Of a stretch of DNA of 53,096 nucleotides, positions 9,835-47,926 are shown in pieces; within the stretch, counting starts at the first letter, position 1, and the number at the start of each line of letters is the position of its first letter. Source of the stretch: Actinomycetota bacterium. Its GTDB lineage: Bacteria > Actinomycetota > Acidimicrobiia > Acidimicrobiales > Ilumatobacteraceae. The notes under the pieces were generated by a model, which worked only from the letters and a program-made list of their open reading frames with translations, was not told the origin of the DNA and searched no databases. Location: the NCBI GenBank assembly GCA_007279905.1, contig QYPH01000001.1, forward strand, positions 1 through 53,096, given 5' to 3'. The translations under genes and the position numbers were made by a program.

Positions 9835-9840
9835 TACTGT
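9835..9840 (+). promoter_or_regulatory. Candidate -10 box (TACTGT) for the redoxin selenoprotein gene
   Basis: TACTGT lies 8 nt before the ATG at 9849, inside the 57-nt divergent spacer. There is no Shine-Dalgarno sequence. Confidence 0.3.
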
Positions 9841-9848
9841 TGCCAACT

Positions 9849-10895
9849 ATGACACGACTTACGGTAATAGATGAAACCGGTTTGCATTCATTTGATGATG
9901 TGGGCTTTGGCGAGCTGGGCGTAAGTGCCGACGACTTTGCTCGCGCCACAGGATGGTTGCTGAGACCCGAAGGTTTGTGCAAGGGCGACGTGTGTGTGCC
10001 TGTGCGCGATGCAGCCGCTATGAGTAATGGATCAGCAATCGATGTTGCCGAGTTTGCGCGCGTCACTGGACGCAACGTAGTTATTGATGCGTCGCGCAAT
10101 GTAGTGGCGATGGGAGAACAGGCTTCAAGCAGGGCGGCAGCAATGACAACTCTTGATGCACCCGATTTCACGTTGCCCGATATCAACGGCAAGATGGTTT
10201 CACTGAGCGATTTCGCCAACCGCAAGAAACTCATACTCGCCTGGTCGAGTTGGTGAGGCTGTCGCTACGAGCTGCCGGTCTGGCAGCAACTCGCCACTGA
10301 ATTTGCAGACACCGATTTTACAATCATTGCCGTTGCGCTCGATGCCGATGCGCAAGCGGTGAAAGAATGGGCAACAAAAGAGCCGTTGTCGTACCCAGTG
10401 TTGATCGACACGATGCACATCGTTGCCGACCTGTACGGAATTGTCAACGTGCCAGCGGCTTTATGGATAGACGAGAACGACAAAATTGTGCGACCAGCAG
10501 ACAGCACTCCTGCCAGCGATATGTGGAGATCGTTTAGTGGCGTTGACTCTGCAGTGCACCACGAGTTGTTGCGCAGATGGGTGCGTCACAACGAATTGAC
10601 TATGGATGCCGATGCGGTTCGCTCGTTTCAGGTGCTGCCAACAAGCGAAGTTCAACAAGCCAGGTTGCATCGGCGAATTGCGATTGCGCTTCGCGAGCGT
10701 GGCGATGAATCCGGTGCGTTAGAGCACATGGACAAAGCCGAGCAACTTGCACCCCACGACTGGACAATTAGGCGCGGCAACATGCCGCTTCGGGGTGTCG
10801 ACCCGTTTGGCGAAAAATTCATGGAGTTCGTTGGCGAGTGGAGTGCCGCTGGAAGCCCGGGTTTCAAGCTGGGGACAGGACGAGAAACGAAGTAA
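9849..10895 (+). CDS. Redoxin-domain protein with in-frame UGA, candidate selenoprotein
   Basis: One reading frame of 348 codons is interrupted only by TGA at 10254-10256 (residue 136). Residues 1-100 form an N-terminal domain I do not recognise. From APDFTLPDINGKMVSLSDF onward the protein is a thioredoxin-fold AhpC/TSA-redoxin domain. The TGA falls at LILAWSSW-[UGA]-GCRYELPVW, where relatives carry Cys in a CxC-type redox site. The frame continues with TDFTIIAVALDADA, a conserved cis-Pro-like region (YGIVNVPAALWI) and a helical, TPR-like C-terminus. Both halves are clearly one protein, so selenocysteine insertion is more likely than a simple stop. A SECIS-like hairpin follows at 10268-10293. 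A Cys-to-stop nonsense mutation is the main alternative. The C-terminus overlaps the convergent methyltransferase gene by 32 nt. No sel genes are in the window. Confidence 0.75.
10268..10293 (+). promoter_or_regulatory. SECIS-like hairpin downstream of the in-frame UGA
   Basis: CGAG-CTGCC-GGTCT-GGCAG-CAA-CTCG folds into a 5-bp upper stem (10272-10276 with 10282-10286) with a 5-nt loop GGTCT, extended by a 4-bp lower stem across a 3-nt bulge. The loop starts 21 nt after the UGA. Bacterial SECIS elements have a small loop with G among its first two bases, located roughly 16-37 nt after the UGA; the E. coli fdhF loop also contains GGUCU, as I recall it. A bulged U as in fdhF is not obvious, because the candidate U pairs with A. 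Confidence 0.65.
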
Positions 10896-44897: not shown

Positions 44898-45524
44898 GTG
44901 TTCGTCAAAATTTGCGGAATCACCAATGAGCAAGATGCATTATTGGCGGTTGCGCTTGGAGCTGATGCACTGGGCTTCGTGTTTGCACCATCGCCCCGAC
45001 AGGTAGCACCAAGCAAAGTTCGCGAGATCGTGCGTCGCTTACCGTCTGAAATTGTGACGGTAGGAGTGTTTCGCGATGAGTTGCCAAAGCGTATTGGTGA
45101 CATCATGCAAGAGGCACATTTGCAGGGAGCACAATTGCATGGCCATGAGTCGCTTCTGATTACTGCTGAAGTTTCGGATGCTGCGCGCTTTTCGATCAAA
45201 TCAGTTGTCGCTGGTTCACCAGATGCGGCGCGCGCAGACCAATTTGTTTGTGATGCAATTTTGGTTGACGGTCTTCGACCTGGATCTGGAGAGGTTTTTG
45301 AGTGGAGCTTGATGAACGAGATTCCGCTCGGTTTGCGCCTCATACTTTCAGGAGGCTTGACTCCTGACAATGTTGCGCAAGGCATCGAACGAGTGCGTCC
45401 ATGGGGCGTAGACGTGTCGAGTGGGGTTGAAAAGAGTCACGGGTTGAAAGACCCAGTAAAAATGCGTCAGTTCATTGCGCATGCACGCGCTGCAGCCCGA
45501 GACTTAGGGGATGTCGAAGAGTAG
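44898..45524 (+). CDS. trpF: Phosphoribosylanthranilate isomerase
   Basis: A 208-residue TIM barrel. It has the catalytic Cys in [32 protein letters not shown], the general-acid Asp in [16 protein letters not shown], and the phosphate-binding [15 protein letters not shown] and [13 protein letters not shown]. It converts phosphoribosylanthranilate to CdRP for TrpC. The start is a GTG at 44898. Its 3-prime end overlaps trpB by 14 nt. Confidence 0.93.
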
Positions 45525-46698
45525 ATTTGTAGAGATGTTGCAAGACCCAAGTATCGACGGACGCTTTGGAGAGTTTGGCGGACGCTATGTTCCCGAGACA
45601 CTTGTGCCAGCGTGTCAAGAACTAGAAGCCGCATTTAGAGATGCATGGGCAGATCCTTCTTTTCACAAAGAACTCGATGATCTCTTGCGCGACTACGCGG
45701 GTCGCCCATCGATCTTGACCGAGTGCCACAATTTGGGAAAGCAACTCGGCATTCGGTTGTTGCTCAAGCGCGAAGACCTGAATCACACCGGTTCGCACAA
45801 GATCAACAGTGTGCTCGGCCAGGTGTTGCTGGCAAAACGCATGGGCAAAAAGCGCATCGTTGCCGAAACGGGTGCTGGTCAGCACGGTGTTGCTTCGGCA
45901 ACTGCTGCAGCGCTTCTAGGCCTGAGTTGCAAGGTATATATGGGTGAGGTCGATGTACAGCGGCAGGCACTCAACGTTTTTCGGATGAAACTCTTGGGCG
46001 CGCAAGTCGTGCCAGCAGTTTCGGGTAGTCGCACACTCAAGGACGCAGTCAACGAAGCAATGCGCGACTGGGTTGCAACAGTAGAAGACACCTATTACGC
46101 AATTGGTTCTGTCATGGGTCCGCATCCGTACCCGTGGATGGTGCGCATGTTTCAAAGCGTCATCGGCAAAGAAGCGTTCGAGCAGTGCCACACAGTGCTG
46201 GGTGGCCTAGACCCCGATGTTGTCGTTGCGTGTGTCGGTGGTGGATCCAATGCGATCGGCATTTTTTCTGGCTTCATTGACACCAAGGCTCGACTCATTG
46301 GCGTTGAGCCTGCTGGTGGTGCTGCTGTTGGTATGGGTGTTCCAGGAGTCGTGCACGGGATGCGCAGCTACTTGCTGCAGGACGAACATGGTCAAGTGCA
46401 AGAAGCGCATTCAATTTCGGCAGGTCTTGACTATCCAGGTGTAGGTCCGGAGCATTCGTATCTTGCATCGATCGGTCGTGCAGAGTATCCATGTGTGAAC
46501 GACCAAGAGGTTATAAGTGCTTTCCAGGTGATGTCTCGCAGTGAAGGAATCATTCCGGCTCTCGAGTGTGCGCACCCGATGGCGTGGATCATTCGTGAAG
46601 CACCCAACATGCAGGGTCAAACCATTTTGATGAACTTGTCTGGTCGAGGGGACAAAGATGTTGCTCAGATGATGGAGATTTTGGATGGACAAATTTGA
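45511..46698 (+). CDS. trpB: Tryptophan synthase beta subunit
   Basis: A 395-residue PLP enzyme. It has [18 protein letters not shown], the PLP-binding Lys in [14 protein letters not shown] (near residue 92), [15 protein letters not shown], the glycine-rich phosphate cup [10 protein letters not shown] and LSGRGDKDV at the C-terminus. It condenses indole and serine. trpF overlaps upstream, and trpA starts at its stop codon, as usual for the alpha2beta2 complex. Confidence 0.96.
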
Positions 46699-47480
46699 TG
46701 TCGACAGATATCGGCATTCTTGAAACGTATTTGCGCAAAAAGCGAAGCGAGGGTCGCAAACTTGTCGTTCCTTATATCACTGGCGGATTCAAAGGTTGGA
46801 CCGATGCGATCCGCGCTGCTGCTGCAAACGGTGCAGATGCAATCGAAATCGGTATTCCATTTTCTGACCCCGTCATGGATGGTCCAACTATTCAGAACGC
46901 ATCGGAGATGGCGCTGCACAATGGTGCCACGCCTATATCTATCTTGCACGAGCTGCGATCGGTCGATGTCGGTATTCCGCTTGCGGTGATGTGTTACTAC
47001 AACACCGTTCATCATGCCGGGCATGAGCGATTTGCAAATTCTTTGAGTGAATCCGGAGTGTGCGCAGCGATTGTTCCAGATCTGCCACTCGAAGAGTCTG
47101 GTTTGTGGTGTGCTGCAGCCGACACGCGTGGTGTTGAGACGGTGATGCTGTGCGCACCAACCGCACCCGATGAGCGGTTGCCGCGAATTATTGAACGTTG
47201 CAGAGGTTTCGTGTACGCCGTTGGTTTGTTGGGCGTGACAGGAGAGCGAGATGCGCTTGCATCAAGCGCACTCACTCTGGCTAAGAGATTGAAGGCGATT
47301 ACCGATATACCTGTATTGATTGGCGTTGGTGTCTCGAATGCACAGCAGGCAGCAGAGGCTTGCACGATTGCCGATGGCGTTGTGCAGGGGGCTTCGGTTA
47401 TGCGACGATTGATCGAGGAAGATGCAGATGCAGTGGGTGATTACATAGCCGAAGTTCGAAAGGCGGTAGATCAATGTTGA
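46698..47480 (+). CDS. trpA: Tryptophan synthase alpha subunit
   Basis: A 260-residue TIM barrel. It has PYITGGFKGW, the catalytic Glu and Asp in IEIGIPFSDPVMDGPTIQ, VPDLPLEESG and YAVGLLGVTGERD. It splits indole-3-glycerol phosphate to indole for TrpB. The ATG at 46698 overlaps the trpB stop by one base (TGATG); a TTG three bases earlier is possible. Its stop lies inside the start of the peroxiredoxin gene, so trpA and bcp are coupled. Confidence 0.94.
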   Translation: MSTDIGILETYLRKKRSEGRKLVVPYITGGFKGWTDAIRAAAANGADAIEIGIPFSDPVMDGPTIQNASEMALHNGATPISILHELRSVDVGIPLAVMCYYNTVHHAGHERFANSLSESGVCAAIVPDLPLEESGLWCAAADTRGVETVMLCAPTAPDERLPRIIERCRGFVYAVGLLGVTGERDALASSALTLAKRLKAITDIPVLIGVGVSNAQQAAEACTIADGVVQGASVMRRLIEEDADAVGDYIAEVRKAVDQC

Positions 47481-47926
47481 AAGAAGGTTCTTTGGCACCC
47501 GAGATTGAATTGTTGGACCAGCATGAAAAGAAGTTTTCGTTAAAGAAATTGTCGAGGCGCACAATCCTCGTCTACTTCTATCCAAAGGCCGATACGCCGG
47601 GATGCACACAGCAGTCTTGCGGTTTGCGCGACATTGCAGACCAGATTGGCAAAACAGTGATAGTGGGAATCAGCCCAGATAAGCCTTCTAAATTATTGAA
47701 GTTTGATGAGAAATTCTCGCTTGGTTTTACACTGCTTTCGGACGACACCAACGCTGTTGCAAAGAAATACAAGGTGTGGAAGAAGAAATCAATGTACGGT
47801 CGTGAGTACATGGGGATTGAGCGCTCTGCTTTCTTGATCAATGGCAAAGGCGAGATCGTTCATGCGTGGTACAAGATCTCGCCTAAGGACACTCCGCTTC
47901 GATTGCTCGAGTCACTGAAGAAGTAA
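47474..47926 (+). CDS. bcp: Thiol peroxidase, BCP-type peroxiredoxin
   Basis: A 150-residue atypical 2-Cys peroxiredoxin. The peroxidatic Cys and a resolving Cys five residues later are in YPKADTPGCTQQSCGLRD, the arrangement of BCP/PrxQ. VGISPDKPSKLLKFDEKF and FTLLSDDTNAVAKKY continue the family pattern. It reduces peroxides using thioredoxin. The ATG lies 7 nt inside trpA, an unusual partner for tryptophan genes. Confidence 0.92.
   Translation: MLKEGSLAPEIELLDQHEKKFSLKKLSRRTILVYFYPKADTPGCTQQSCGLRDIADQIGKTVIVGISPDKPSKLLKFDEKFSLGFTLLSDDTNAVAKKYKVWKKKSMYGREYMGIERSAFLINGKGEIVHAWYKISPKDTPLRLLESLKK

Follow-up and report, generated by a model that had tools for sequence, protein, structure and literature searches.

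A redoxin-family gene from an acidimicrobial draft genome that very probably reads its in-frame UGA as selenocysteine

The gene at positions 9849..10895 of the forward strand of the window (the whole 53,096-nucleotide stretch of DNA analysed here) very probably codes for a soluble, probably cytoplasmic selenoprotein, a thiol/selenol oxidoreductase with a ResA/TlpA (AhpC/TSA) fold and a U-G-C active site. This reading of the sequence draws on the open frame, selenocysteine (Sec) machinery in the host genome, a SECIS-like hairpin, Sec/Cys exchange among homologues and selection on the coding sequence, and also on UGA being an ordinary stop elsewhere in the window.

Results

The frame starts with ATG at 9849, ends with TAA at 10893-10895 and comprises 348 codons; its sole internal stop is the TGA of codon 136 (10254..10256, forward strand), which stands in the context ...LILAWSSW-U-GCRYELPVW.... 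Pfam assigns residues 103-214 to AhpC/TSA (E 5e-20) and Redoxin, and as this stretch extends to either side of the TGA, the codon lies inside one domain. The initial annotation, which had described a single 348-codon frame interrupted only at residue 136 and coherent redoxin sequence on either side, was accurate on both points. UGA is the terminal stop of 16 of the 48 non-overlapping ORFs of at least 150 amino acids in the window, and past those 16 TGAs the frame stays open for 9-40 codons, with one case of 96, so that UGA behaves as a normal stop here. The 96-codon extension is that of ORF 45511-46698, whose end is overlapped by the next ORF, and the TGA of the redoxin gene falls outside the set of 48 because the ORF preceding it has 138 codons. 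The window holds a second peroxiredoxin-like ORF (47474-47926), PrxQ/Bcp-like by eye and without an internal stop.

When GTDB species genomes were scanned, 340 relatives could be confirmed and 80 of them were kept; the site can be read in 78 of these, as two (L085 and L102) end before it. Codon 136 is TGA in 57 loci and a Cys codon in 21, with no other residue. Of the two patterns used in the scan, one had Cys encoded at the active site and the other derived from NVP..DE, and the ratio of Sec to Cys is consequently no census. The same codon is TGA in four relatives within the genus or family that are 67-91% identical over all or nearly all of their length and come from separate assemblies; the closest full-length named record among the 80 kept is MAG casp40-mb.37 (91% identity). 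Homologues with Cys at this position read CGC, so the TGA had rightly been described as replacing the redox Cys of a CxC-type site, and the proposed comparison of this column across homologues gave TGA or Cys exclusively. Some loci are present twice, as judged by identity (L072 = L050, L073 = L051, L075 = L058, L083 = L052, L085 = L053). Record titles are mostly Actinomycetota or Acidimicrobiia groups, with a minority of Chloroflexota, Deltaproteobacteria or Myxococcales and one each of Rokuibacteriota and Nocardioides. Cys homologues occur in the named relatives Aquihabitans sp. G128 and Nocardioides szechwanensis (L109, L138). Two MAG contigs (L090 and L102) are titled Bifidobacterium breve; in the tree, however, L090 falls among Acidimicrobiia rows, and L102, a cut sequence left out of the tree, shares 73% identity with the window protein, and these titles look like placeholder labels.

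In comparisons of the window gene with three of the four relatives above, its nearest full-length kin, dN/dS was 0.14-0.15 for the codons preceding the TGA and 0.035-0.045 for those following it, which points to purifying selection on the downstream codons and agrees with the earlier remark that they had not decayed. Synonymous divergence in the same comparisons (dS 0.6-1.1) leaves ample time for decay, and none was seen. The combination named at the outset as speaking against a selenoprotein, a strain-specific TGA followed by a decaying frame, was found in neither part: the TGA is kept in 57 of 78 loci and dN/dS is low.

A quick tree of 97 rows was built from 73 Sec genes, four of them NF041054 outgroup rows (see below), and 24 Cys genes. 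Sec and Cys exchange on it in seven changes, of which the well-supported (starred) branches force at least three, and the 14 rows of the starred group that includes the window gene are all Sec.

The host genome is a draft, 69.5% complete in 93 contigs, and its Sec genes sit on contigs other than the window. A tRNA-Sec gene on contig C30 scored 64.2 bits (gathering score 47) and was called tRNA-SeC with anticodon TCA by ARAGORN; selA (390.1 bits, cut-off 268) and selB (284.5 bits, cut-off 242) adjoin each other on contig C76, and selD scored 323.4 bits (cut-off 125). All four of the genes suggested as a check by the initial annotation are thus present. The remaining seven tRNA-Sec matches in the genome were below cut-off, and the three checked by ARAGORN were tRNA-Leu (two) and tRNA-Thr (one). 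The window itself gave nothing with Rfam at the gathering threshold and no tRNA with ARAGORN. Across the order, selA was above cut-off in 62 of the 100 genomes examined (host included); the lineage had been portrayed as one with few known selenoproteins, and Sec decoding is not scarce in the order. Within the genus the distribution is patchy, with selA in 7 of 23 genomes (G000, G003, G006, G007, G012, G019 and G020).

We compared Sec or Cys at the site with the presence of selA in a sibling set of genes nearer to the window protein, which from the matches listed contains 16 TGA genes (window included) and three Cys genes. For this, 20 stretches were fetched, of which L053 (from genome G017) breaks off past the site and L069 (from G061) has no match to the protein, both being left outside the Sec/Cys count; L049 and L067 are one gene, and four fragments (G036 C676, G042 C92, G049 C96 and G064 C176) were left out of the set. 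selA was found in 16/16 genomes with TGA (host included) versus 0/3 with Cys (Fisher p 0.001, genomes treated as independent). Of the 15 TGA relatives, 12 have a tRNA-Sec of at least 64 bits, and the genomes of the other three are 63, 72 and 81% complete; the best matches in the Cys genomes scored 47.5, 45.4 and 42.6 bits, the first of these just above cut-off and only 71 nt long. One genome of the same genus, G017 (89% complete), has neither selA nor tRNA-Sec above cut-off and carries a gene 93% identical to that of the window (L053; L085, record UBA3029) that the contig end cuts at codon 141, five codons past the UGA site. As codon 136 of this gene is unreadable and neither selA nor tRNA-Sec is above cut-off, Sec may possibly have been lost in this lineage inside the genus. 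Like G017, G027 (90% complete) is a counter-case: it carries a TGA gene of the sister family, yet selA gave no match there.

A SECIS-like hairpin (10271..10287, forward strand) lies 20 nt after the UGA, with a 6-bp stem (10271-10276 with 10282-10287), a 5-nt loop, GGUCU (10277-10281), and an energy of -11.6 kcal/mol (centroid hairpin). The bSECIS model, as described in a 2026 review (PMC13188914), has an upper stem of 4-16 bp, an apical loop of 3-9 nt, a distance of 16-37 nt from the UGA, a G among the first two positions of the loop and an MFE of -7.5 or below; the stem, loop, spacing and energy of the hairpin all fall within the four limits given there. The frequent loop pattern of that description, N1-G-[G/U]-N-N2 with N1 and N2 paired (PMC13188914), is not matched exactly, as the covarying apical pair of the hairpin (10277-10280) encloses two bases, one fewer than N1-N2. 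RNAfold leaves this apical pair open, giving the 5-nt loop.

After repeated stretches were dropped, the five-pair core of the stem was present in 44/44 distinct TGA genes, pooled from the window clade and its sister family; 13.9 would be expected if synonymous codons were redrawn by each gene's own usage. The Leu codon of the stem is CTG in 42 and TTG in two, the commonest Leu codon in those genes being CTC. The apical pair (columns 24 and 27) links two third codon positions, one in a Pro and one in a Val/Gly codon, and is kept, as C-G, G-C or A-U, in 58/58 TGA genes (an alignment of 58 rows, 55 of them distinct) versus 8/21 Cys genes (p 8e-10); core and apical pair together occur in 57/58 and 5/21, respectively, and the outermost pair (18-34) is present in just 47/58 TGA genes. 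The covariation score was 0.269 in TGA genes versus a shuffled mean of 0.069, with none of 500 shuffles as high, and 0.102 versus 0.084 in Cys genes, with 122/500 shuffles as high, although in further pair types the Cys set also exceeds most shuffles (10/500 as high). The core is also found in 13/21 Cys genes, where it survives because it is favoured by the codons of the conserved LPxWQ. Against dinucleotide shuffles, the 45-nt stretch from the TGA showed no extra stability (z 0.00), and against mononucleotide shuffles the mean z was -0.6 over 45 TGA genes. The argument for a putative SECIS element is one of covariation and codon choice, and fold stability by itself does not demonstrate the element. 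One TGA gene (L106:6346-6390) keeps the stem as CTTCC/GGAAG instead of CTGCC/GGCAG, a two-sided change with Gln to Lys as a by-product.

The AlphaFold2 model of the protein has a mean pLDDT of 85.9. The N-terminal domain (residues 1-103, 9849..10157) carries a C44-x4-C49 pair (codons 9978-9980 and 9993-9995); it is followed by the thioredoxin-fold domain recognized by Pfam and in the model (AhpC/TSA, Redoxin, ResA-like; residues 103-214, 10155..10490) and by a helical C-terminal part, in which residues 271-304 (10659..10760) give a weak TPR-like match below the Pfam cut-off, all on the forward strand. C44, C49, U136 and C138 are the only Cys/Sec residues of the window protein. Together with G137 they are among the positions invariant in an 18-row alignment (Sec counted as Cys), and C138 (TGT, 10260..10262, forward strand) is the presumed resolving partner in the U-G-C site. 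The Cx4C pair is present in 77 of the 78 loci, and in the remaining one (L082) the first Cys was the end of the stretch searched. In structure the middle domain resembles ResA/DsbE, with matches to 3gl3 (Z 18.0, rmsd 2.2, 140 residues) and ResA, 1st9 (Z 17.0). Modelled by itself (pLDDT 85.9), the N-terminal domain found no PDB match at E 0.001 or better; a search limited to the PDB cannot prove a fold to be new.

No strong hydrophobic stretch was found at the N-terminus (in 19-residue segments starting at residues 1-40, the Kyte-Doolittle mean peaks at 0.42), and no export signal or anchor is apparent by hydropathy. The gene neighbourhood gave no functional lead: relatives of the upstream SDR-like ORF occur in 12 loci (7/12 listed positions within 1 kb) and those of the downstream methyltransferase-like ORF in 11 (3/11 within 1 kb), both ORFs being named by eye. 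Further ORFs recur around the gene as well.

The best NCBIfam match of the window protein is NF041054 (ResA-like WAxxUGC motif-containing protein, WAxxUGC_long) over residues 23-316, and all 18 members of the alignment match this model at E 0.001. The two share a layout, with an N-terminal Cx4C domain, a thioredoxin fold with UGC and a C-terminal helical part, and members of the NF041054 family also carry TGA. The window protein differs in scoring 222.6 bits, below the cut-off of 300, and in its motif, WSSWUGC versus WAxxUGC, and the four NF041054 outgroup members have some 17-26 more residues after the fold. The quick tree separates this clade from the four NF041054 rows by a branch of 0.68 (support 100) and so places it as sister to the family modelled by WAxxUGC_long. 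NF041054 matches at E 0.001 occur in at least 96 of the 100 genomes, the weak ones mostly covering the fold alone, and at least 28 of the 100 have a match above its cut-off. Among the matches listed, sister-family TGA paralogues above cut-off number four in G036 (contigs C519 and C527 among those carrying such paralogues), three in G064 and three in G097. In a survey of the phylum the alignment matched at E 1e-40 in 16 of 296 genomes, at least three of which (G037, G040 and G043) have sister-family genes, judged by their place.

Discussion

A nonsense mutation, left either in a decaying pseudogene of a Cys redoxin or as an assembly error in a MAG, has in its favour that the genome is an incomplete draft in 93 contigs, and nothing else; the same TGA occurs in relatives from separate assemblies and is kept in most readable loci, the hairpin covaries and dN/dS downstream of the TGA is low, and we consider this explanation extremely unlikely. 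UGA could also be an ordinary sense codon, reassigned genome-wide to Trp, Gly or Cys. The extensions surveyed past terminal TGAs in the window gave nothing in its favour. The 16 long ORFs of the window that end in TGA, with the next stop mostly within 40 codons, and the presence of Sec machinery in the genome argue against this, and its probability is negligible.

Readthrough of the UGA by a near-cognate tRNA, which would place Cys, Trp or Arg in the protein instead of Sec, is very unlikely given that the only swap partner across the readable loci is Cys, that the three Cys forms of the sibling set are in genomes without a selA match and that a SECIS-like hairpin follows the codon. The ORF list gives two frames, 9840-10256 and 10359-10895, as would be expected if an upstream polypeptide ended at the UGA and a downstream one restarted, for example at the GTG at 10359. 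Such a break would, however, fall within the thioredoxin fold at the catalytic pair, and Cys relatives encode a single chain, which makes the production of two polypeptides next to impossible. Since the list splits the gene at the UGA, and standard gene calling would do likewise, many genomes of the order probably carry the gene under a wrong annotation.

Selenocysteine therefore remains the preferred reading of codon 136, in a protein of a kind that is already known. A 2008 GOS paper has a row 'Prx-like (UGC-containing)' with pfam00578, UGC and the figures 46, 15 and 855 (PMC2398784), a UGC-containing Prx-like protein is listed in a 2022 review (PMC9312934), and the 2026 review lists a UGC-containing TlpA disulfide reductase family protein (PMC13188914), which, going by these entries, would be the earlier Prx-like entry renamed. 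Compared by description with these printed entries, the window protein is alike in having a pfam00578 domain and the U136-G137-C138 site. The novelty implied when the gene was first noted was consequently overstated, as a UGC-type AhpC/TSA or TlpA-like selenoprotein is in print in these sources and NCBIfam models the sister family; what we describe is a well-supported selenoprotein gene in a sister clade, not one new in kind. A literature search found no paper on WAxxUGC, none on selenoproteins and selenocysteine in Acidimicrobiia or on a selenoprotein in acIV, and nothing on selenoproteins together with RefSeq, PGAP and NCBIfam. The likeness to ResA, TlpA and DsbE (CcmG) is one of fold, seen in the structural matches to 3gl3 (a putative DsbE) and ResA and in a match to the ResA model PRK03147 (E 1e-19, 71 bits, below the cut-off of 170). 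Unlike these proteins, the window protein has UxC, with one residue between, versus CxxC, has no apparent export signal or anchor by hydropathy, and has extra N- and C-terminal parts.

We propose that SelB with Sec-tRNA-Sec would bind the hairpin 20 nt past the UGA, allowing Sec to be inserted at position 136. The selenolate of Sec136 may then attack a disulfide or peroxide substrate, and Cys138 would resolve the intermediate to give a selenenylsulfide, which could be returned to the reduced state by an external donor of the thioredoxin type or, within the same protein, by the C44-x4-C49 pair. A tentative extension, which we think somewhat doubtful, is that C44, C49, U136 and C138 form a two-site relay in one chain, in which the Cx4C domain hands electrons to, or resolves, the Sec-Gly-Cys site. 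If true, the relay would be a selenoenzyme layout common to the window clade and WAxxUGC_long and absent from the literature descriptions compared here, as far as those descriptions go. The gene set provides a natural experiment in which Sec and Cys are exchanged as the SECIS apical pair decays, and it draws attention to a Cx4C domain, so far uncharacterised, that accompanies the Sec site.
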